64,000 nucleotides of DNA from Bogoriella caseilytica. GTDB lineage: Bacteria > Actinomycetota > Actinomycetes > Actinomycetales > Actinomycetaceae. The stretch is taken from assembly GCF_003752405.1 (NCBI RefSeq), contig NZ_RKHK01000001.1, positions 2,790,001-2,854,000 on the forward strand. The letters run 5' to 3'. Below the pieces are notes generated by a model that saw nothing but the letters and a program-made list of their open reading frames with translations, did no database searches and was not told where the DNA came from. Positions 49,129 to 64,000 of the stretch are shown piece after piece (positions within the stretch are counted from its first letter, which is position 1; every line of letters starts with the position of its first letter). The position numbers were made by a program, and so were the translations under genes.

Positions 49129-50151
49129 TCAGGGCAGGGCCGTGGCCGCGCTGGCGGCAGCAGTGCCCGCACGATGCTGGCGCGCCGCATCGCGGATCCT
49201 GAGGTGCTCCAGGATCGACAGCGGAGCGCGGTAGCGGTTGAAGGTGAACAGGTGGAGACCAGGGCACCCGAGTTCGAGCACGGCATCGATGAGATGCAGC
49301 GTGGCGGCCACTCCGCGCCGGCCGAGTTCCGCCTCATCGACGCCCTCGAGATGGGCGAGCAAGTGCTCAGGCACCGGCACGCCCGTGATCTGCTGCAGCC
49401 GCTGCAGCCGCTTGGCGCTGGTCAGTGGAGCGATCCCGGCGACGATCGGCAGGTGGATCCCTTGGGAGCGGGCGTCGTCCACGAGGCGCGCGTAGTCCTC
49501 GGCGTCGTAGAAGACCTGCGTGATCGCGTAGTCCGCTCCGGCCTCCTGCTTCTCCCACAGTGCGTGCAGATCCCTGCTGTAGTCCCGCGGGGCACCGGAG
49601 CGCGGATAGGCCGCGACGGAGATCGAGATCGGTCGTGCACCGATCCCGGCAGGCGGGTGGAGACGTTCTTCCTCGATCTGCCGGATGGCGCGTACCAGCT
49701 CCGCCGCACGGTTGAACCCGGAGGGCTCGTCGACCCACTCGGTCGCGCCCGGTAGCGGATCGCCCCGGAGAGCCAAGAAGTCCCGCACCCCCTCCGTGAT
49801 CAAGCCGGCCACGAGCGCTCGCAGGTCGTCCTGGGTGCGGCCGGCGCAGATCAGATGCGCGAGCACCGGCACCTCCGTGTGCTCCAGCAGGTGGCGGATG
49901 AGTTCGCGATGCGCATGTGCTGACTGCTGGTGCCCGTGCGTGACAGAGAAGTAGTCCGGCCCGGCCTGCGCCATGGTGTCGATCGCCTGCCAGGCCTGAG
50001 TGGGTGCCACCTCGGGACGCGGCGGGAAGACCTCGAAGGAGATCAGGGTTCGACGCCGGGTCCGCTGCACGAGGAAGGCCGTGGAGCGGGAGGGAGCGTC
50101 TGCGGGGGTGACGGCTGAGGGGGCGCTCGGGGCGAGAGAAGGCGAGGACAT
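49129..50151 (-). CDS. metF: Methylenetetrahydrofolate reductase
   Basis: A 340-residue FAD-dependent TIM-barrel enzyme that reduces 5,10-methylene-THF to 5-methyl-THF. SFEVFPPRPE contains the catalytic Glu, VTHGHQQSAHAH and LALRGDPLPG are family motifs, and YAITQVFYDAEDY follows. It sits between the YxjG-like gene (15 bp upstream) and metE, forming a methyl-supply operon. Confidence 0.95.
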   Translation of the reverse strand: MSSPSLAPSAPSAVTPADAPSRSTAFLVQRTRRRTLISFEVFPPRPEVAPTQAWQAIDTMAQAGPDYFSVTHGHQQSAHAHRELIRHLLEHTEVPVLAHLICAGRTQDDLRALVAGLITEGVRDFLALRGDPLPGATEWVDEPSGFNRAAELVRAIRQIEEERLHPPAGIGARPISISVAAYPRSGAPRDYSRDLHALWEKQEAGADYAITQVFYDAEDYARLVDDARSQGIHLPIVAGIAPLTSAKRLQRLQQITGVPVPEHLLAHLEGVDEAELGRRGVAATLHLIDAVLELGCPGLHLFTFNRYRAPLSILEHLRIRDAARQHRAGTAAASAATALP

Positions 50152-50166
50152 GGCCGGGTGGAACTC

Positions 50167-51339
50167 TCAGCTTCCCCAGAACTCGCGCGCGATGCGCTGG
50201 CCCTGGCCGACCTTGGCCCACTGCTGCTCCTCGGAGAGCTCGTTGCCGTTGTCGCAGGAGGCGAAGCCGCACTGGTGGGACAGGTGCAGGCGCTCCTTGT
50301 CCACGATCGACGCAGCCTCCTCCAGCAGCGCGCGGACGCGCTCCTCGTCATCGAGTTCGGCGGTCTTGGACGAGAGCAGGCCGAGCACGACCTCGGTTTC
50401 GTGGCGGTCGGCGAAGACCCGCAGCGCCTCGATGGATCCGGCGCGCTCGTCGTCCCACTCCAGGAAGAAGCGGTCATAGCGCTGCTTGCGCAGGAAGAGC
50501 TCGGCGATGGCCTCGTAGGAACCGGCACCCATGTGCCGGGAGTCGTAGTTGCCGCGGCAGTTGTGCGTCCACACCTTCAAACCCAACGTGTGGGCGTGGT
50601 CGATGAGCGCGTTGTTGAGGTCGATGAACTCCTCGGCGAAGCCGCGGACCTGCTCGTAGGGCACCGCTCCACCGGTGAACGGGGAGGTCGGGTTGTCCTC
50701 GGCGAACATCTCCCACAGGCAGTCGTCGAGCTGCAGGATCTCCCCGCCGGCCTCGGCGTACTCGCCGGCGAACTCCTGATAGGCACGGAGCAGCCCGGCC
50801 TTCAGTTCGTCGGCGTTGGCATAGACACCCTCGGCCCGGCCCGCGTTCGGGGCGCCGAAGAGCTTGCCGGAGAGTTCGCCGAAGACGTGGGAGGGCGAGG
50901 GGATGGAGAGCTTGGTGGGCCGGCCTTCGCTGAGTTCGGCCAGGCGCCGGTAGGTCTCGATGAAATGGTGCCCGCGCCCGCTCAGCGGAGCGACTACGCG
51001 GACCCCGATGTCGCGGCGGGTCTCGTAGGTGCCCTCCTCGTCGAGATCGCGGAAGTAGTAGCCGTGCTCGGCGATGAATCGCTCGGTGCCTCCGAGTCCC
51101 CAGATGAAGTCGGTGTGCCACAGGGCGCGGTTGTACTCGCCGTCGGTCAGGATGCCGACGCCGTTCTCGATCTGCTTGGCAACGACGTCGCGGGTGCTGG
51201 CCACCTCGGTCTCCCGGTACCCGGGCACGTCGTCGTAGAACGGGTAGGTGACGTCGTCGCGCTCTTGGATGGCGGTCTTGTGGTCGAGGAGCTCCTGGGG
51301 GCGCAGGAGGCTGCCGACGAGGTGGAATCGTGTGCTCAT
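50167..51339 (-). CDS. MetE C-terminal-like methyltransferase (YxjG/YxjH type)
   Basis: A 390-residue single-barrel protein related to the catalytic half of MetE. The zinc-site residues are visible in WTHNCRGNYDSRH (His, Cys), FFLEWDDERAGS and LSHQCGFASC (Cys). YxjG-type proteins are thought to methylate homocysteine from alternative donors. ATG 51339 (MSTRFHLVGSLLRP) is the family start. The regulatory dyad at 51386-51403 sits directly upstream. Confidence 0.9.
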   Translation of the reverse strand: MSTRFHLVGSLLRPQELLDHKTAIQERDDVTYPFYDDVPGYRETEVASTRDVVAKQIENGVGILTDGEYNRALWHTDFIWGLGGTERFIAEHGYYFRDLDEEGTYETRRDIGVRVVAPLSGRGHHFIETYRRLAELSEGRPTKLSIPSPSHVFGELSGKLFGAPNAGRAEGVYANADELKAGLLRAYQEFAGEYAEAGGEILQLDDCLWEMFAEDNPTSPFTGGAVPYEQVRGFAEEFIDLNNALIDHAHTLGLKVWTHNCRGNYDSRHMGAGSYEAIAELFLRKQRYDRFFLEWDDERAGSIEALRVFADRHETEVVLGLLSSKTAELDDEERVRALLEEAASIVDKERLHLSHQCGFASCDNGNELSEEQQWAKVGQGQRIAREFWGS

Positions 51340-51385
51340 GACTCCACGGTCGCACCAGATCTGGCACATAGGGTAAGACCAAGCT

Positions 51386-51403
51386 GCTATCGGTTGGCAT
51401 AGC
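51386..51403. promoter_or_regulatory. LysR-type dyad in front of the methionine operon
   Basis: GCTAT-CGGTTGGC-ATAGC is a perfect 5-bp inverted repeat containing a T-N11-A core, about 47 bp upstream of the YxjG-like start and just after the lysR stop. This is the expected form of a LysR-regulator box. A minus-strand TTGGTC (51384-51379) next to it could be the -35. Confidence 0.55.
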
Positions 51404-51409
51404 CCCTAG

Positions 51410-52342
51410 CTATGAGTCGTCGTCGACCTCTTCGGCTAGGACGCGCTCGAGCTCATCCAGGTAGGTGCGCGCCTGGCCGGTGAGTTGCACCGAGGCTGGT
51501 GCGATCCAGCCCACCTCGATGTGGTCGTCCACCTCCAGCGGCACCGAGACGATGTTCTCGCCATTGAGATCGGTGCTGAGGATGCCAGTGGAGATGGTGT
51601 AGCCGTTCAGTCCGATCATCAGGTTGAAGATCGTGGCGCGGTCACTCACTCGGACGGCCTTCGGACTGAACTCGGTGCTGAGGATCTCCTCGGCAAAGTA
51701 GAACGAGTTGTGCACCCCCTGGTCGAAGGAGAGGCAAGGGTAGTCCGCGAGGTCGGCCGGACTGACCGAGGCCCGGCCCGCCAGCGGATTGGTGCGGGAG
51801 ACGAACACATGCGGGCGGGCGGTGAAGAGCGGGTGGAAGGCGAGGCCCCGAGTGCGGAAGATCTTGTCCAGCACCTGCTGGTTGAAGGGATTGCGGTAGA
51901 GGATGCCGATGTCGCTGCGTAGCGTGGCGACATCTTCGATGATGTCGTGCGTTCGGGTCTCCCGAAGCGTGAACTCGTACTCCGCGGTGTCGGCCCGCCG
52001 GACCATGTTGACGAAGGCATTGACCGCGAAGGCATAGTGCTGAGTCGAGATGGAACAGAGACGGCGGGGCGGCTTCTTGTCGGCATAGCGTTGCTCAAGC
52101 AGGTCGGCCTGCTGGACCACCTGCCGGGCATAGCCGAGGAACTCCACGCCGTCCGGGGTCAGGCTGATCCCCTGGGCGGTGCGGGTGAAGAGTTCGCGGC
52201 CCACGCGAGCCTCGATCTCTTTCATCGACTTCGACAAGCTTGGCTGCGCGACGTAGAGCGCGGCCGCCGCCCGGGTGATCGAGCCGCTGGCGGCGACCTC
52301 GATGAAGTACTTCAGCTGCTGCAGGGTCACCAGGCTGTCCAT
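51410..52342 (-). CDS. LysR-family regulator of the methionine cluster
   Basis: A 310-residue LysR-type regulator with HTH in SGSITRAAAALYVAQPSLSKS and a two-lobed effector-binding domain from about residue 90. It lies 70 bp upstream of the YxjG-metF-metE genes in the same orientation. Control of methionine synthesis with homocysteine or a sulfur metabolite as effector is inferred from MetR/MtaR relatives. Confidence 0.9.
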   Translation of the reverse strand: MDSLVTLQQLKYFIEVAASGSITRAAAALYVAQPSLSKSMKEIEARVGRELFTRTAQGISLTPDGVEFLGYARQVVQQADLLEQRYADKKPPRRLCSISTQHYAFAVNAFVNMVRRADTAEYEFTLRETRTHDIIEDVATLRSDIGILYRNPFNQQVLDKIFRTRGLAFHPLFTARPHVFVSRTNPLAGRASVSPADLADYPCLSFDQGVHNSFYFAEEILSTEFSPKAVRVSDRATIFNLMIGLNGYTISTGILSTDLNGENIVSVPLEVDDHIEVGWIAPASVQLTGQARTYLDELERVLAEEVDDDS

Positions 52343-56800: not shown

Positions 56801-56931
56801 TCCTCGGGTTCTTGAGACCGGTGCCCACCTACCCGGTGGCGAGATAGACCGTGTTGCTGGACTCGCCGTCGGTGAACAAGCTCGACATCAGGTGTTCCTC
56901 GCCCAAGGCCACCTCGCATGCCGCCGGATCC

Positions 56932-56945
56932 TAGGGTAGAGCCCA
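56932..56945 (+). promoter_or_regulatory. Leaderless promoter of the GntR gene
   Basis: TAGGGT (56932-56937) lies seven bases before ATG 56945, with no ribosome binding site. Confidence 0.45.
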
Positions 56946-57697
56946 TGTCAGCGACCGACCCGGCCCGGATGGCGCCACAACCATCGCCGCACTCCGCACC
57001 CGAGGCGGCGGGACTGGCCGCGCGCAGGTCGCTCCGCGATCAGGTGTACGACGCCGTATTGGACATGCTGGTCGCTGGACGCTTCGGCCCCGGGGAATCG
57101 CTGGGCATCGATCCACTCGCCGCGTTGCTCGGCGTCTCTCCCACGCCGGTTCGCGAGGCGCTGGTCCAACTCGAGGCCACCGGGCTCGTCACCCGCACGG
57201 CGCTGCGGGGCTACAAGGTTGCCCCGCCGATGTCGCGCACCACCATCGAGCAGCTCTTCGACGCCCGGCTGGTGGTGGAGGTCGCGGCTGCTCGCCACGC
57301 TGCCGAGAATCACGATGGCCTAGAACCCGCACTGCGCGCTGCCGTCGATCGCCATCGACAGCATGCGGCGGCCCTGACGCCGCCGACGGCGGAGGCCTCG
57401 GTCCAGGATCTCAGCGAGTACCTGGCTGCCGATCGCGCTTTTCACGACCTGCTCTTCCAGGCCACGCAGAACCCGTTCTTCCAGGAGATGACTCGGCACA
57501 TCTCCATCCACGGAGAGCGACTTCGGCAGTTCATCGCACATCGCACTCCGGATGCTGAGCAGGCAGTCGCCGAGCACGAGGCCGTGCTGGAGGCCATCGT
57601 CGGCGGGGATGCGGACCAGGCCGCGGCAGCGATGGAGTCGCACATTCTCGGGGTGCGCCAGCGCACGTTGCTCGATGCTGAGGCGCCGGGGGAGTAG
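56945..57697 (+). CDS. GntR-family regulator (FadR/FCD type)
   Basis: A 250-residue regulator. The winged helix (DQVYDAVLDMLVAGRFGPGE, LLGVSPTPVREALVQLEATG) is followed by an FCD effector domain with the usual Asp and His metal-site residues (TIEQLFDARLVVE, DRAFHDLLF, HEAVLEAI). It is convergent with the kinase/isomerase operon, 13 bp from its end, and probably controls it. Confidence 0.9.
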   Translation: MSATDPARMAPQPSPHSAPEAAGLAARRSLRDQVYDAVLDMLVAGRFGPGESLGIDPLAALLGVSPTPVREALVQLEATGLVTRTALRGYKVAPPMSRTTIEQLFDARLVVEVAAARHAAENHDGLEPALRAAVDRHRQHAAALTPPTAEASVQDLSEYLAADRAFHDLLFQATQNPFFQEMTRHISIHGERLRQFIAHRTPDAEQAVAEHEAVLEAIVGGDADQAAAAMESHILGVRQRTLLDAEAPGE

Positions 57698-57710
57698 CAG
57701 CGAACCGTGT

Positions 57711-58478
57711 TCAGTCCGCAGCCAGGCGGAGCAGCTCGAGATATCCGGAGAGGCTCCAGGCCGCCCGGCCGACGAACAAGCCCTCGACCGTTCCCAGCGC
57801 GAGCAGTTCGACGGCGTTCCCAGCGTTGACCGAGCCGCCATACAGCACCGCCTGGACTCGGTCCCCGAACTCGCCCTGCAACGACTGCAACGGGCCATCA
57901 ATCTCGGCCGTGTGCGGCGTCCGCCCGTGTTCGCCGATGGCCCATACGGGTTCGTAGGCGATCAGGACGGAGTCGAGCTCGTCGGAGCTCAACCCGTCGA
58001 GTGCCCCCCTGGCCTGATCGAGCACATGCTCCCGCGATCCTCCGGCTCGCTGGACGGCGTCCGGTTCGCCGACGCACAGCAACGGCATCAAGCCGTGGCG
58101 GAGCGCGGCGCGCACTTTCCACGCCGTGCGCTCGATGGAGTCGGCGAAGTGCTCACGGCGCTCGGAGTGGCCGATTTCAATCACCTGAGCCCCGGCATCC
58201 GCCACCTGCGGCACCGAGACCTCCCCGGTCCAGGCGCCGGCGTCCTCCCAGTGAGCGTCCTGGGCTCCGAGGAGAAGCCCGGCCGGCCGATCGCGCGCGG
58301 GGCCGAGTGCCTCATCCACCGAGGCCAGCGCGGTGTGCGAGGGAATCACGAAGGGCTGCACCCCGGCGTACTCACCGGGCTCATCCCGCAAGGCGGCGAC
58401 CAACCCCTGTGCGTAGGTCACGGATTCGGCCAGCGTCTTGTGCATCTTCCAGCTGGTGCCCACCCAGCGAGTGGTCAC
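57711..58478 (-). CDS. Triosephosphate isomerase-family enzyme (EryH-like)
   Basis: A 255-residue TIM barrel with the catalytic residues of triosephosphate isomerase: Lys11 (GTSWKMHKT), His104 (EIGHSERRE) and Glu176 (AYEPVWAIG). The GTSWKM opening, in place of GNWKMN, is the form seen in tetrulose-phosphate isomerases of the EryH/LerI group. Together with the RpiB and DhaK genes upstream it suggests isomerisation of erythrulose phosphate rather than glycolysis. The GTG start overlaps the rpiB stop by four bases. Confidence 0.87.
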
Positions 58479-58939
58479 GCTCCGGTGCCCTCGTAGGCGG
58501 TGATGGCCTCGACCTTGGGAGCCGAACTCGAGTCCGGGTCGAACTCGTGCCCGAGCCATTCCTGAACCAGCAGGCGTGCCACCTCCAGCCCCACCACACG
58601 CGCACCCAGGCAGAGAACCTGCGCGTTGTTCGACAGGACCGAGCGCTGGACGGAGTAGGTGTCGTGGGCGGTCACGGCGCGGACGCCGGCGACCTTGTTG
58701 GCGGAGATCGCCACGCCGAGCCCGGTGCCGCACACCACGAGCGCACGGTCGACCTCGCCGCGCGCGACCCGTTCTGCAGCCTCGATGGCCACGTTCGGGT
58801 AGTAGGTCTCATCGTCAGAGCCCGTGACGCCGACGTCGACGATCGTCTCGACGCGTGCGTCCGCCTCCAGCTCCTGCTTCAGTACCTCTTTGTAGGAGTA
58901 GCCGGCGCTGTCTCCGCCGACGGCGATCCGTAGTCCCAT
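58475..58939 (-). CDS. rpiB: RpiB/LacAB-family sugar-phosphate isomerase
   Basis: A 154-residue isomerase of the RpiB fold. [14 protein letters not shown] opens it, Cys70 lies in [15 protein letters not shown] and His92 in VTAHDTYSV. RpiB relatives interconvert ribose/ribulose 5-phosphate, but EryI/DerI members convert D-erythrulose 4-phosphate to D-erythrose 4-phosphate. The neighbours favour the latter. It is coupled to the TPI-like gene and lies 10 bp after the kinase. Confidence 0.87.
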
Positions 58940-58949
58940 GGTTTCTCCT

Positions 58950-60656
58950 TCAGTCCTTGATGTGCTGAGCGAGTGCGGTCATCAGAAGTGCGAAGGAATG
59001 TGCGCCGGGATCGGGCGTGCCGAGGCTCTTCTCTCCGAGCACCCGGGAGCGCCCCAGTCGTGCCGTGATCTCGGCGGTCTCCGCTGCTGCGCTCCGAGCC
59101 GCACCTGCGGCCTCGGCCAGCGCGGCCTCCGGATCGCCGGTGGCGTCGAAGTGTGCACGGAGCTGCTCAGCGAAAGGCAGTGCGGCGTCCATCATGGTTT
59201 TGTCACCGGCCTTCGCGCCACCGAGCCTCTCCACGGCTCCGATGCCTGCAAGGAGCGCTGCCACCAGGGTCGCCACGTCTGCGCCGTCGTCGTCGCTGAG
59301 GGAGCCACCGACTGCCGTCAGGGCCGCTCCCCACAAGGCCCCCGAGGTCCCGCCGGCCGCCTCGGACCACGCAGAACCGGCACGGATGAGAACGGTACGG
59401 GCACCGGCACCCTGGGCGAGGGCCTCCTTCGCGGCTGCGGTGGCACCTCGTGATCCCGCCACCATGGCTGCACCGTGGTCACCATCACCGGCCACGGCAT
59501 CGAGCTGGCCGAGTTCCTCCTCGTGCGTCACACACGTACGGTGCAGCGTGTCCAGCGCCGTGACGATGGCTCCGGCAAGTGCGCGGGAACTCTCCGACGA
59601 CGAGGGGATCTCCGCCTCACCCGGCTGGTACACCGTGGTGCGCTGGGTGCGTTCTCCGGGTACCTCGCCGCGCCGGAAAGCCGGGGTGTCAGCCGGCGCA
59701 AGCCAGTACTCCTCGAGTTCCTCATCGAGAAAGACCAGCGTCAGCGACAGCCCTGCCATATCCAGGCTGGTCACGTGCTCACCAACTTCGGGGCGCACTG
59801 CCGTCAGGCCGAGCTCCTGAAGTCGCCGGTCCACCTGGCGGTAGACCACGAACAACTCCTCGTACTTCACTGTGCCCAAGCCGTTCAGTAGGACCGCCAC
59901 GCGCCCGGAATGCGCTTCGGGTGCCTCGGCCATCACGCCGTCGACCAGGAGATCGGCGATCTCGGCAGCGGTGCGCATCGGCTCCTCGCGGACACCCGGC
60001 TCGCCGTGGATGCCCAGACCGATGGCCATGGTGCCCTGCTCGACGTGGAAGAGCGGCTCGGCAGCGCCCGGCAGGGTGCAACCGTCGAAAGCGACGCCGA
60101 GCGAACGGGTGGCGTCATTGGCCTTCCAGGCCACACGCTCGGTCTCGTCGAGGTCCGCGCCCGCCTCGATGGCGGCCCCGGCAATCTTGAACACGGGGAG
60201 GTCACCGGCGATCCCGCGCCGGTCGCGATGGTTCTCCGCTGTGTTCGAGGCGAGATCGTCGCTGACCATGATGATGCGCACGTCCACGCCCTCGGCGCGC
60301 AGCTTCTCCGCGGCCGCGCCGAAATGCAGCACATCGCCGGCGTAGTTCCCGAAGCCCATGATCACGCCCCCGCCGTTCTCGGCCGACCGCGCCACGGAGT
60401 AGACCTGGGAGGCGGAGGGCGAGGAGAAGATGTTGCCGCAGGGGGAGCCGTGCCCCAGTCCTGGACCAACCCAGCCGGCGAAGGCGGGGTAGTGGCCTGA
60501 GCCGCCGCCGATGACCAGTGCGGGCTGGCCCGGGGGAGTCTCGGTGGAACGAACTACGCCGCCGTGGACGGCGGTCACGTATTGCGGGTGCGCCGCAGCG
60601 AAACCTGCCAGCGCCTCGGCCGGGAAATCCTCGGCCTTGTTGATCAAGTAGGTCAT
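58950..60656 (-). CDS. Dihydroxyacetone kinase-family protein, DhaK-DhaL fusion
   Basis: A 568-residue single-chain ATP-dependent kinase. The DhaK half (about 1-330) has [15 protein letters not shown] and the substrate-binding His217 (GLGIHGEPG). The DhaL half (about 365-568) has the ATP/Mg motif [10 protein letters not shown] and a Ser/Thr-rich nucleotide loop. Substrates can be dihydroxyacetone or, in LerK/DerK-type members, erythrulose. It leads the operon with RpiB- and TPI-like genes, which supports erythrulose. Confidence 0.9.
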
Positions 60657-60729
60657 GACTCTTCCTCGGGCGTCGTTGGCCGGGGCGGGGCCGGGTGGGG
60701 CGGCGGAATCGTTGCTTCGAGCCTGTCAC

Positions 60730-60770
60730 GTTGACGTGAGAGCTGCCACTGTCAACTATCATATAGGATA
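60730..60770. promoter_or_regulatory. Divergent promoter region with two dyads
   Basis: GTTGAC (60730-60735) and GTCAAC (60751-60756) are inverted with 15 bases between. Directly beside lies TATC-ATATAG-GATA (60757-60770), an AT-rich dyad in very GC-rich DNA. TTGACG (60731) and TATCAT (60757) resemble promoter elements, but their spacing is 20. The region separates the kinase operon from the isomerase gene and probably binds a GntR regulator. Confidence 0.45.
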
Positions 60771-60792
60771 TTGCCTACTGAGAAGGACGAGG

Positions 60793-61713
60793 ATGTTCAC
60801 TGCAGAAACGTGGCCGATCGCCTGCAATATGCTGCCCTTCGGCTCGCGCGCCGCAGACGGCAGCCCGATCGTCGAAGCGCCCGCGAGTACTTGGGCCCGC
60901 CAGCTCCGGCAAGTGCGTGAGTTGGGCTTCGAGCACATCGACCCCTCTGATGCGTGGTTGCCGATCGCGGCCCTCTCCGATGCGCGGCTGAAGGAGTTCG
61001 AGACCGTCCTCGACGATGAAGGCCTGGCCATCGGCTCGATCTCGATGACCCGGAGTTCAGTCGTTGATGTGGCCAACGGCGAGGAGAACCTGCGACTGGC
61101 GCATCGCCTGATCGATCTCGCCCCGCACTTCGGCGTTCCCGTGGTGAACACCGGATTCATGCAGGCCCTGACCCCGGCGCAGCAACAGGCGCTGTGGTTC
61201 TGGCTCGCCGAGGGGCACGTGGACGATCCGCAGCTCCGCCCCCTGGCCGTGGCGCGCATTCGCGAGCTCGGCGAGCATGCCGCCGCCAATGGCATCGAGG
61301 TGAGTCTGGAGATGTACGAGGACACCTACGTCGGTACTCCGGAGGAAGCGATCAGCTTCCTCAAGGACGTCGATCACCCGGCGGTGGGGTTGAACCCGGA
61401 CCTGGGCAACCTGGTCCGCCTGCACCGCCCCATCCCCAAGTGGGAGGACATGTACGCCGCCGTCCTGCCCTACGCGAACTTCTGGCATATCAAGAACTAC
61501 CTCCGCGACGAGGACCCGGCCACCGGTTCCTATGCCTCCGCCCCCGTGCCGTTGAAGTACGGGATCATCAACTACCGCGCCGTGATCCGGCAGGCGGTGG
61601 AGCTTGGGTACACCGGCGTGTTCTGCTGCGAGCACTACGGCAGCGACTCTCTCGGGGTGGCCGCCGAGAACCGTGACTACATCCGCCAGGTGCTCAGCTC
61701 GGCACTGCGATAA
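60793..61713 (+). CDS. Xylose isomerase-like sugar (phosphate) isomerase/epimerase
   Basis: A 306-residue AP-endonuclease-2/xylose-isomerase-type TIM barrel. The likely divalent metal ligands are Glu173 (SLEMYED), Asp203 (GLNPDLGN), His232 (FWHIKNY) and Glu280 (CCEHYGSD). A GAAGGACGAGG site precedes ATG 60793. Proteins of this fold include EryC-type tetrulose-phosphate epimerases and many sugar-acid isomerases. Its divergent position next to the kinase/isomerase operon suggests the same pathway. Confidence 0.85.
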   Translation: MFTAETWPIACNMLPFGSRAADGSPIVEAPASTWARQLRQVRELGFEHIDPSDAWLPIAALSDARLKEFETVLDDEGLAIGSISMTRSSVVDVANGEENLRLAHRLIDLAPHFGVPVVNTGFMQALTPAQQQALWFWLAEGHVDDPQLRPLAVARIRELGEHAAANGIEVSLEMYEDTYVGTPEEAISFLKDVDHPAVGLNPDLGNLVRLHRPIPKWEDMYAAVLPYANFWHIKNYLRDEDPATGSYASAPVPLKYGIINYRAVIRQAVELGYTGVFCCEHYGSDSLGVAAENRDYIRQVLSSALR

Positions 61714-61730
61714 GTGAGGAGCAACAATCC

Positions 61731-62693
61731 ATGCGACCAATCTCCACAGCCACGGTGGTCGGTGCCGGATACATGGGTGGTGGTATCGCGCAGAGCCTCG
61801 CCTTGGCCGGCCTGCAGGTGCGCATCGTCGACACGGATCCTGAGGCGACCCAGGCCGGCCTCGCCCGATTGCTCCGTGAGGCTCAGGACTTCGAGGACCA
61901 GGGCCTGTACAGATCCGGCTCGACCGAGACCATCCGTGCCCATCTCACGGCAGGAGACTCCCTGGCCGGCGCCGTGGCGGATGTCGACTTCATCGAGGAA
62001 GCAGTATTCGAAAGCCCGGAGGTGAAGACGGTCGTGCTGGCGGAGATCTCCGCTCACGCTCGCCCTGACGCCATCATCGGGACGAACACCTCCACGATCC
62101 CGGTCCGGGTGCTCGCACCCTCCGTACAGCACCCTGAACGATTCCTCACCGTGCACTACTCCAACCCGGCGCCCTTCATCCCCGGCGTCGAACTCGTGGC
62201 CGGGGAGGCGACGGCGCCTGAGGTGGTCGAGGCGGTCAAGGAACTGCTGGTGCGGACCGGCCGTCAAGGTGCACAGGTCGCCGACGTGCCGGGGATGGTG
62301 CTGAACCGTTTGCAGTACGCCTTGCTGAAGGAAGCGTGTTCCGTGGTCGAGGAGGGGGTGGCGACGACGGAGGATGTGGACACCATCGTGCGCACCACCT
62401 TTGGCTTCCGCCTCGGTTTCTTTGGCCCCTTCGCTATCGCCGATCAAGCCGGACTGGACGTCTACCAGAAGGCCTTCGGGATCATCGAGGAGGCCTTCGG
62501 TGAACGCCTGGGCACTCCGCGACTGATCTCCGATGCCGTCGAATCCGGTCGGTACGGGGTGAAGAACGGCAAGGGGCTGGCCGCAGACTACGACGACGAC
62601 ACTCGCGAAGCGCTGATCGCCTACCGCAACAAGGCCTACTCGAAAATGGGGGAGTTGCTCCGCGAGCTGGGCCCGGCACCGCGCCGCAGCTGA
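61731..62693 (+). CDS. 3-hydroxyacyl-CoA dehydrogenase-like NAD-dependent dehydrogenase
   Basis: A 320-residue two-domain dehydrogenase. VVGAGYMGGGIAQSLALAG is the Rossmann motif, TVHYSNPAPFIPGVELV holds the catalytic His and Asn, and NRLQYALLKEACSVVEEG opens the C-terminal helical domain. The family includes L-gulonate 3-dehydrogenase and carnitine dehydrogenase as well as fatty-acid enzymes. Here, 17 bp after a sugar isomerase, oxidation of a sugar acid or polyol is more likely than beta-oxidation. A GTGAGGAGC site precedes it. Confidence 0.85.
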   Translation: MRPISTATVVGAGYMGGGIAQSLALAGLQVRIVDTDPEATQAGLARLLREAQDFEDQGLYRSGSTETIRAHLTAGDSLAGAVADVDFIEEAVFESPEVKTVVLAEISAHARPDAIIGTNTSTIPVRVLAPSVQHPERFLTVHYSNPAPFIPGVELVAGEATAPEVVEAVKELLVRTGRQGAQVADVPGMVLNRLQYALLKEACSVVEEGVATTEDVDTIVRTTFGFRLGFFGPFAIADQAGLDVYQKAFGIIEEAFGERLGTPRLISDAVESGRYGVKNGKGLAADYDDDTREALIAYRNKAYSKMGELLRELGPAPRRS

Positions 62694-62879
62694 CGCAGAT
62701 CGGCCCACACAGCCCATCAGTGGGTTGCCTGAGCTCCCTGACCCACCTACCCTTTCGCGTTTGTGCTCACTCGACGTCGCTACGAACCGCGAGACGGCGA
62801 AGTGGAGCAACGCTTGCCGAGCACAAGCGCAAAGGTGCCCGCGCCAGGCACTGGTGTGGGCATGTGGCTGGTCCGGCCC
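62694..62879. other. Noncoding gap with long inverted repeat
   Basis: CCTTTCGCGTTTGTGCTC (62751-62768) pairs with GAGCACAAGCGCAAAGG (62819-62835) apart from one bulge and one G-T pair. The 50-base loop holds a smaller CGTCGC/GCGAGACG hairpin. No coding frame is convincing. It may be a terminator, a structured RNA or a remnant of a repeated element. Confidence 0.45.
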
Positions 62880-63554
62880 TTACTGCTCTGGTAGCTCCAG
62901 CTCACTCAGGCGCGAGTACGCACCACTCATGTGCTTCTGAGCAGCTACCCGCGCGGCGGCCGGGTCGCCACTGGCCAGCACGGTGCGCAGTTCGTGGTGC
63001 TCGGGGTACCCCACGGTGGGGAAGTCCGGGAAGTTGATGTTGCGGGTGAGCAGGAAGAAGGACACCTGGCTGCGGATCGAGGTCCACACCCAACTCAGGC
63101 GGGTGTGGTCGGCCGCACGGTAGATGACGTCGTGAAAGGCGAGGTCCAGCCGCACGGCGTCCTGTGGCTTGACGCTGCCCGAGGTCACCTTCATCTCGGC
63201 GAGCACCTCGTCGAGTTCGGCGAAGTGCTCCGGGGTCATCCGGGTGGCCGCGCGCTCTGCGGCCAGCGCCTCGAGCGCCGCTCGCAGGGTGTGCACCTCC
63301 TCGACGTCGCGTTTGGTGAGCACGCTGACAAAAGCGCCGCGATGGCGCCGGATCTCGATCTGCCCCTCGCGGGCTAGCAGTGCGAGCGCCTCCCGTACCG
63401 GGCCGCGGCTGACCTTGAGCTGAGAGGCGAGCTCGAGTTCACGGAGGTGCTCGCCAGGTTGGAGTTCCCCGCTGGCCATCTTGTCGCGCAACACCTGCAC
63501 CACGTGGTCACTCAGGGCTGCTCGGGGGGCCTCCACGGATGACGCCATCGTCAT
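62880..63554 (-). CDS. GntR-family regulator (FCD type)
   Basis: A 224-residue regulator with wHTH (LKVSRGPVREALALLAREGQ) and an FCD effector domain (VHTLRAALEALAAERA, DLAFHDVIYRAAD, HHELRTVL). The start ATG 63554 has AGAAGGG just upstream; ATG 63548 is possible. It is divergent from a beta-xylosidase gene with a palindromic operator between them, so it likely represses a pentoside-use gene set. Confidence 0.9.
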   Translation of the reverse strand: MTMASSVEAPRAALSDHVVQVLRDKMASGELQPGEHLRELELASQLKVSRGPVREALALLAREGQIEIRRHRGAFVSVLTKRDVEEVHTLRAALEALAAERAATRMTPEHFAELDEVLAEMKVTSGSVKPQDAVRLDLAFHDVIYRAADHTRLSWVWTSIRSQVSFFLLTRNINFPDFPTVGYPEHHELRTVLASGDPAAARVAAQKHMSGAYSRLSELELPEQ

Positions 63555-63626
63555 GTTCCCTTCTCTACGTCGCGTGCCGGCATCACCGCATGATGGCAGG
63601 CATTCGCCAGGTCCGACAGTCATTGG

Positions 63627-63642
63627 AGATTGTTGACAATCT
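63627..63642. promoter_or_regulatory. Perfect GntR/FCD-type operator
   Basis: AGATTG-TTGA-CAATCT is a perfect 16-bp dyad containing ATTGTNNACAAT, a form known for FCD-type GntR operators. It lies between the GntR gene and the divergent GH39 gene. Confidence 0.65.
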
Positions 63643-63718
63643 GCAATCTACTCCCTAGTGTTCCCCGCAACCCGTCGATGACGACGGTCCCGAACACTTC
63701 GGAAGGGTGCACGACGAC

Positions 63719-64000
63719 GTGACTACGGACACCGATTTCAATCCCGGTATCGGCAAGACGGAATCGCCCTACCCCCAGGCCGCCCCCAGCGACCCAGACG
63801 CCCCCCACGTTCATGCCGCGACGATCCGCGTGGACGCCACCGTCGACCGCGGAAAGCTTGCCCGAATCTGGGAGAGCATCGGCTACGACGAGTTCAACTG
63901 GACGTACATGCCGACCGGGCGTGAGCTGCTCACGACCTTCGGCGGCCTGGCGAAGCAAGGCGTCCATGTGCGACCGCACTACGTCTTCTGCTCGGGCAAC
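63719..64000 (+). CDS. GH39-type beta-xylosidase, N-terminal part
   Basis: This gene runs off the right edge; 94 codons are visible from GTG 63719 (an in-frame GTG also occurs at 63707). After a Pro-rich opening, ATIRVDATVDRGKLARIWES and IGYDEFNWTYMPTGRELL, then HVRPHYVFCSG, match the start of family 39 beta-xylosidases. These release xylose from xylo-oligosaccharides. There is no signal peptide, so it is probably cytoplasmic. GGAAGG lies 12 bases before the start. Confidence 0.8.
   Translation, partial: MTTDTDFNPGIGKTESPYPQAAPSDPDAPHVHAATIRVDATVDRGKLARIWESIGYDEFNWTYMPTGRELLTTFGGLAKQGVHVRPHYVFCSGN

Follow-up and report, generated by a model that had tools for sequence, protein, structure and literature searches.

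A candidate lower pathway for C5 sugar acids through L-erythrulose in Bogoriella caseilytica

The DNA analyzed here (hereafter the window) is a stretch of 64,000 nucleotides from Bogoriella caseilytica, corresponding to positions 2790001–2854000 of the single 3,235,396-base contig of its 3.24 Mb genome. Toward its end, at 57711–62693, five genes form two divergent operons, which the Pfam scan and coordinates show to be flanked on both sides by GntR/FCD regulators. On balance, we judge it probable that this cluster encodes the lower steps of a pathway that breaks down a C5 sugar acid by way of L-erythrulose. In the proposed pathway, an NAD+-dependent enzyme of the 3HCDH family would oxidize a C5 sugar acid (the simplest candidate being a linear L-pentonate) at its 3-hydroxyl, and a TIM-barrel enzyme would use Mg2+ to remove CO2 from the resulting 3-oxo acid, giving L-erythrulose. 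LerK, LerI, and DerI, a kinase and two isomerases, would then carry L-erythrulose on to erythrose 4-phosphate and central metabolism, and both divergent operons would be controlled by the regulator GntR1 through ATCATATAGGAT. The kinase and isomerases (the trunk) are a known route, to which the dehydrogenase and the TIM barrel (the head pair) apparently add a parallel entry. The features of the cluster are as follows.

56918–57697, plus strand: GntR1, a FadR-type (GntR+FCD) regulator (Pfam GntR and FCD)
57711–58487, minus strand: triose-phosphate isomerase (TPI)-like protein, LerI candidate (Pfam TIM, 202 bits)
58475–58939, minus strand: RpiB-type protein, DerI candidate (Pfam LacAB_rpiB, 147 bits)
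58950–60656, minus strand: DhaK-DhaL fusion kinase (DhaKL), LerK candidate (Pfam Dak1, 368 bits; Dak2, 138 bits)
60758–60769, no strand: operator-like palindrome ATCATATAGGAT between the divergent operons (sequence inspection and motif counts)
60793–61713, plus strand: xylose-isomerase-like TIM barrel of the 5TNV type (Pfam AP_endonuc_2, 102 bits)
61731–62693, plus strand: predicted NAD dehydrogenase of the 3HCDH family (Pfam 3HCDH_N, 161 bits; 3HCDH, 77 bits)

The minus-strand operon begins with DhaKL, which is followed after 10 bases by the RpiB gene, and the latter overlaps the TPI-like gene by 13 bases; in the plus-strand operon, 17 bases separate the TIM barrel from the dehydrogenase. All five proteins scored far above the Pfam cut-offs of their families, which bears out the five genes, positions, and families named in the initial annotation of this DNA.

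Sequence comparisons support the assignment of the DhaKL, RpiB, and TPI-like proteins as a putative trunk of an erythrulose kinase and two isomerases that leads to erythrose 4-phosphate. The chemistry by which LerK, LerI, and DerI reach this product is described in the available part of PMC10733421. The best sequence match of the TPI-like protein in the PDB was 11ef, named L-erythrulose-1-phosphate isomerase (207.7 bits), and the next was a TPI (150.7 bits). The TPI-like protein and 11ef carry the motif GTSWKM at the position where the canonical TPI of the genome has AGNWKM. Among 36 TPI-like sequences, 21 have GTSWKM, one has GTGWKM, and one has the canonical AGNWKM; in the remaining 13, no W-x-M was seen among the 70 residues at the start of the extracted stretch, which means that a second TPI-like type or cut fragments exist. 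The second TPI of the genome adjoins a SecG-like gene (SecG by eye) and is 35 to 36% identical to the TPI-like protein of the window, which is the only LerI-like protein that we found encoded in this genome. LerI is required for the use of L-erythrulose 1-phosphate.

The DhaK-DhaL fusion is distinct from the two other DhaK proteins of the genome (36% and 40% identity); it passes the subfamily model of the dihydroxyacetone kinase family and misses the glycerone kinase equivalog TIGR02361 (358 versus 575). Two other RpiB proteins of the genome are 34% and 27% identical to the RpiB of the window. Because other copies of TPI, RpiB, and DhaK lie elsewhere in the genome, the trunk proteins of the window are extra paralogs. 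The RpiB scored below the cut-off of the NCBIfam DerI model (159.8 versus 240) and passed ribose-5-phosphate isomerase models, including the actinobacterial TIGR02133 (202.1 versus a cut-off of 168.2); the DerI assignment therefore rests on context. A Planctomonas cluster that contains a PGDH_C protein encodes a DhaKL, an RpiB, and a TPI that are 56%, 64%, and 40% identical, respectively, to those of the window.

The TIM barrel matched PDB entry 5tnv with 538 bits by sequence, and its structural model (mean predicted local distance difference test score, pLDDT, 93.8) aligned with 5tnv at Z 47.8 and a root mean square deviation of 1.1 over 306 residues with 74% identity. This entry is a Mg-bound xylose isomerase-like TIM barrel protein of Mycobacterium smegmatis, and its title gives no function. 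Other structural neighbors included a hydratase, IolE proteins, and the probable dehydratase AsbF. A scan with the TIM barrel found at least 66 related loci among the best 80 candidate stretches, many of which were cut by contig ends. In an alignment of 49 sequences that took in 48 of the 66 loci, E173, D203, and E280 were invariant, and residue 232 was His in 44 and Gln in 5. Six basic residues (R87, R209, R212, K234, R238, and R262) were also invariant in the same 49 sequences, and such a set would suit an anionic substrate. We infer that the TIM barrel is a Mg2+-dependent 3-oxo sugar-acid decarboxylase; if this is true, a family with a solved structure, 5tnv, gains a testable function as a decarboxylase.

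The dehydrogenase shows the 3HCDH_N and 3HCDH domains without PGDH_C in Pfam, and none of the 21 3HCDH-related NCBIfam models listed reached its cut-off. Residues S121, H142, E154, and N192 were invariant in 26 3HCDH sequences (the alignment took in 25 of the 37 loci with this enzyme); we take them to match the catalytic residues of 3-hydroxyacyl-CoA dehydrogenases. The model of the dehydrogenase (pLDDT 82.7) had three equal best matches at Z 31.1 over 299 to 303 residues, namely, L-gulonate 3-dehydrogenase, lambda-crystallin, and the aromatic-acid dehydrogenase 4om8. The other matches, among those shown, had Z values of 28.0 to 29.7 over 247 to 262 residues and were mainly CoA-type enzymes. 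L-gulonate 3-dehydrogenase/lambda-crystallin (3ado, 3f3s) shares the fold over nearly the full length (299 residues for 3ado) and the conserved Ser-His-Glu-Asn set, although its identity to the window enzyme is 25% and its Z value is tied with that of 4om8. From the 3HCDH fold, which is common to the whole family, and the conserved, likely catalytic residues, we infer that the enzyme is a sugar-acid 3-dehydrogenase.

A linear pentonate oxidized at C3 is a beta-keto acid, which loses CO2 to give erythrulose, or L-erythrulose if C4 has the L configuration. The C3 of D-apionate is tertiary, so a special oxidoisomerase is needed, and decarboxylation of 3-oxo-isoapionate would give the same product. 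Because both feeders yield L-erythrulose, the trunk cannot tell them apart, and the head enzymes must.

To compare the loci, partners within 10 kb of the TIM barrel were counted by tblastn with chosen bit-score floors; the gene picker, a GC-position heuristic that misplaced some open reading frames, was not used for these counts. Among the 66 loci, DhaKL was present in 45, RpiB in 38, the LerI-like gene in 37, 3HCDH in 37, a short-chain dehydrogenase/reductase (SDR) in 32, PdxA in 15, TctA in 15, and PGDH_C in 8. The complete set of DhaKL, RpiB, and LerI-like genes accompanied 23 of the 37 3HCDH genes and 7 of the 15 PdxA genes. By genus labels, of which 33 were taken from the record titles with unnamed metagenome-assembled genomes kept apart, 3HCDH occurred in 23 and PdxA in 7, and Brachybacterium was the only label with both, in different species. 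We agree with the initial annotation that the two enzymes beyond the trunk suggest a different starting compound.

3HCDH and PdxA were never found together (0 of 66; 2.9e-7 under independence, though the loci are not independent). PdxA and 3HCDH enzymes both oxidize beta-hydroxy acids or their derivatives, and we therefore take either one to fill the same oxidation step ahead of the TIM barrel. The transporters differed in the same way: TctA accompanied PdxA in all 15 loci and 3HCDH in none of 37, and major facilitator superfamily (MFS) or GntP transporters were found in 21 of the 37 3HCDH loci and in 1 of the 15 PdxA loci. The TctA, MFS, and GntP families carry acids, and these counts suggest an acid setting for the pathway. 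On rhizobial plasmids, a short form of the cluster has the order GntR-PdxA-TctCBA-TIM barrel-DhaKL, the DhaKL entry being blank in one of them in an annotation table that is known to be incomplete. Clusters of GntR, PdxA, TctCBA, TIM barrel, and DhaKL were seen on plasmids of Paracoccus, Shinella, Sinorhizobium, and Pararhizobium (L071–L074), where PdxA is annotated as a vitamin B6 enzyme though the setting is catabolic; the Paracoccus plasmid cluster also has a 3-oxo-tetronate kinase and an aldolase.

A palindrome ties the two operons together. A sequence close to ATCCTATAGGAT lies 35 bases upstream of the TIM-barrel gene of the window, and relatives with a near site have a similar palindrome 36 to 101 bases upstream of the TIM barrel match. 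With at most one mismatch, ATCCTATAGGAT occurred at 74 sites in the 1.21 Mb of the 66 loci, compared with 0.67 in shuffles (three shuffles, preserving base composition alone). The exact palindrome occurred 27 times, whereas none was found for about 40 control palindromes of equal half-site composition. The motif first came to notice in the window and three relatives (L011, L021, and L025), all four of which are within the later counts. Sites lay within 300 bases upstream of the TIM barrel in 33 of 66 loci, of DhaKL in 19 of 45, of 3HCDH in 8 of 37, of SDR in 1 of 32, and of PdxA in 1 of 15; 66 of the 74 sites were within this distance upstream of one of 13 genes checked. Relatives of GntR1 were found in 34 loci, 31 of which also have the palindrome; 11 loci have the palindrome with no GntR1 found, and 21 have neither. 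In the 3.24 Mb genome, ATCNTATAGNAT has one match, at 60758–60769 of the window, and the reversed control is absent. No site was found in the plasmid loci L071–L074. A further palindrome, TCACGTTGACGTGA, was seen at 60726 in the window.

With these positions upstream of trunk and head genes, all five genes of the cluster fall within a single regulon. GntR1 is probably the regulator of both divergent operons, with ATCATATAGGAT as its putative operator, and the operator is a handle for finding the inducer and hence the substrate. Together with the recurrence of 3HCDH beside the TIM barrel, the palindrome shared with the kinase operon fits a C5 acid that is oxidized and decarboxylated to L-erythrulose. 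On the same grounds, a tetritol or another C4 compound as the starting point, which the initial annotation had considered, found no support.

More broadly, and with more doubt than certainty, we propose an undescribed pathway, shared by Actinomycetota and Pseudomonadota, by which a 3HCDH- or PdxA-type enzyme would oxidize C5 aldonic acids at C3, the 5TNV-type TIM barrel would decarboxylate the products to L-erythrulose, and LerK, LerI, and DerI would process this further, often under a GntR regulator acting on ATCCTATAGGAT. No publication on the 3HCDH/TIM-barrel pair was recognized among the titles found, most subscription papers lying beyond the literature searched. L-pentonates would be the simplest substrates of such a pathway, and their natural source is a guess. 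In its available part, PMC6225978 describes 2-oxo- and 2-carboxy-L-threo-pentonate and not L-pentonates themselves, so ascorbate as their source remains a guess. If the proposal is true, L-erythrulose is a hub joining at least two parallel acid pathways, and the family names triose-phosphate isomerase, ribose-5-phosphate isomerase, dihydroxyacetone kinase, and 3-hydroxyacyl-CoA dehydrogenase would be corrected for the proteins of the cluster.

The window ends 1.3 kb past the cluster, where three features lead into an operon that continues beyond it.

62880–63623, minus strand: GntR2, a second FadR-type regulator (Pfam), divergent from the operon described below
63627–63642, no strand: palindrome AGATTGTTGACAATCT between GntR2 and GH39, a possible GntR2 operator
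63707–64000, plus strand: start of a glycoside hydrolase family 39 (GH39) glycosidase gene (Pfam); the rest of the operon lies past the window edge (L069)

According to Pfam, GH39 is followed past the edge by an aldo-keto reductase, two ATP-binding cassette (ABC) permeases, a binding protein, and an SDR. This operon is conserved in Ruania (66 to 83% identity), where GntR2 has the same arrangement and is 70% identical, and GTTGACAATCTGCAAT is common to the GntR2–GH39 palindrome region and the Ruania intergenic stretch. GH39 is closest in the PDB to beta-xylosidases (139.7 bits), a match that does not name the sugar. Compared with the best SDR in the TIM-barrel neighborhood of each other locus counted, the SDR (6674–7438 of L069) shows 45 to 73% identity. 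The operon may supply a sugar or acid to the pathway. Among the seven proteins scanned with Pfam and NCBIfam (56918–63623), there was no transporter and no recognized tetritol dehydrogenase, in agreement with the initial annotation; the missing transporter, however, is at least partly an effect of the window edge, because an ABC importer lies just beyond it.

Several observations weigh against a C5 sugar-acid pathway. The TPI-like protein also scores above the cut-off of NF000722, the NCBIfam model for triose-phosphate isomerase (311.5 versus 293), so this family model cannot separate LerI from TPI here, and the trunk to erythrose 4-phosphate given in the initial annotation, though favored by the match to 11ef, is qualified to this extent. 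The nearest PDB relatives of the RpiB are named ribose-5-phosphate isomerases, and those of DhaKL are dihydroxyacetone kinases. Below 5tnv, the structural neighbors of the TIM barrel have Z values of at most 25.6, with sugar isomerases and epimerases predominating. The usual substrates of PdxA enzymes are phosphorylated acids. The related loci are not independent; Brachybacterium holds both dehydrogenase types, in different species. Of the 49 loci longer than 20 kb, 10 show neither type, and PGDH_C occurs in 5 of those. The conserved SDR has no step in the proposed pathway. In this organism, the neighboring importer is of the ABC type and comes with a GH39 glycosidase, a pairing that points to uptake of a glycoside more than of an acid.

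The alternative that survives best is that the cluster is the published D-apionate pathway, with the 3HCDH-like enzyme as the D-apionate oxidoisomerase ApnO and the TIM barrel as OiaC; we consider this unlikely. A non-RuBisCO pathway for D-apionate with the order ApnO-OiaC-LerK-LerI-DerI was reportedly described by Carter et al. in 2018. This pathway is equal to the cluster in its trunk and logic: an acid is oxidized, a TIM barrel of the xylose isomerase family decarboxylates the product to L-erythrulose (a predicted step in the window), and LerK, LerI, and DerI follow. It differs in that the dehydrogenase of the window is of the 3HCDH family and not PGDH_C, and its TIM barrel is of the 5TNV type. 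The tertiary C3 of D-apionate would also bar the action of a plain 3-dehydrogenase. The reading of the 3HCDH enzyme as ApnO of exactly this pathway lost ground once a search for PGDH_C had pointed to a different dehydrogenase and a different TIM barrel in apiose-type loci. Where a locus encodes a RuBisCO-like protein, the PGDH_C protein is the candidate oxidoisomerase; in Tranquillimonas (L102), it is accompanied by a RuBisCO-like protein, a Gfo/Idh dehydrogenase, and a kinase of the SBD_N/NBD_C (DUF1537) type. The available part of PMC6302742 gives 3-oxo-isoapionate 4-phosphate as the compound on which RuBisCO-like proteins act, and the corresponding part of PMC11747546 gives, for a D-apiose-growing Rhodobacteraceae strain, one cluster annotated with a D-apiose dehydrogenase, apionolactonase, apionate oxidoisomerase, kinase, and decarboxylase.

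In Kushneria (L104), Planctomonas (L105), Ruania (L106), and B. caseilytica itself, the PGDH_C protein adjoins another TIM barrel. Four such barrels (L104, L105, L106, and L017) are 43 to 52% identical among themselves and, like the one in B. caseilytica, weakly similar to that of the window (longest match, 24% over 242 residues), and the genomes of L102–L106 also hold the window-type barrel elsewhere (L053, L067, L055, L038, and L007). The window dehydrogenase lacks the C-terminal PGDH_C domain by which, from gene context, we recognized ApnO, and the window barrel is not of the type found beside PGDH_C, which we took for OiaC. PGDH_C does occur near the window-type TIM barrel in 8 of the 66 loci, 2 of them also with 3HCDH. 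The 47 genomes searched, which represent 47 of the 66 loci, contained PGDH_C in 19 cases and yielded none in 28, genome completeness not being given.

In B. caseilytica, PGDH_C was found at G000:C1:850319, within an apiose-type locus at about 842–858 kb, 2 Mb from the window.

2289–15299 of L108 (G000:C1:842001–860000): GH127, RuBisCO-like protein, SBD_N/NBD_C kinase, apiosidase-like GH, PGDH_C protein, second TIM barrel, GntR, GH42, and GH95

This locus resembles a D-apiose/RG-II type. The DhaKL, RpiB, and TPI-like proteins of the window had no match within its 18 kb. Because the sole LerI-like gene found is that of the window, the locus may depend on the window trunk, which may thus serve both the cluster and the apiose-type locus and drain the latter, where no trunk adjoins. 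A Ruania candidate for ApnL, itself unconfirmed as a query, had no match in the B. caseilytica genome; a Gfo/Idh query for apiose dehydrogenase gave seven weak matches there (best identity, 30%), none of which was assigned.

The other two alternatives start from C4 compounds. It is very improbable that the cluster serves tetritol or free tetrulose catabolism, with the SDR past the edge as the tetritol dehydrogenase and the two head enzymes serving something else. Tetritol catabolism of M. smegmatis is said to have been described by Huang et al. in 2015. As given in the available parts of PMC10733421 and PMC12780249, it shares with the window the kinase and two isomerases ending at erythrose 4-phosphate. 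By contrast, the window cluster has the 3HCDH enzyme and the TIM barrel instead of a recognized polyol dehydrogenase, and a tetritol start was rejected as the preferred reading for this reason. The SDR matches the GolD/DthD model weakly (141.9 bits, below the cut-off of 286), and many generic SDR models score higher. The head genes, moreover, share the palindrome with the kinase operon and occur together in 37 of the 66 loci. Equally remote is a C4 acid route, in which 3HCDH or PdxA would oxidize threonate or erythronate, decarboxylation would give dihydroxyacetone, and DhaKL would be a plain dihydroxyacetone kinase feeding TPI: DUF1537-type genes in 19 of the 66 loci, L-threonate-dehydrogenase-like genes in 9, the TPI model passed by the TPI-like protein, and two of three short rhizobial clusters that list just GntR, PdxA, Tct, TIM barrel, and DhaKL (in the third, DhaKL has no entry) agree with it, but the genome already has a DhaK with DhaL and another DhaKL, LerI is the best PDB match of the TPI-like protein, and RpiB would be left without a task.

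Two further gene groups were noted. A third RpiB of the genome lies in an ABC-importer cluster (406–7628 of L098, G000:C1:880001–889000) with a GATase1-like protein, an FGGY kinase, and a class II aldolase, which is another undefined sugar pathway. At 49129–52333 of the window, a gene of the methylenetetrahydrofolate reductase (MTHFR) family stands with a gene of 400 amino acids that has no Pfam match and is MetE-like by eye, and a LysR regulator adjoins them.

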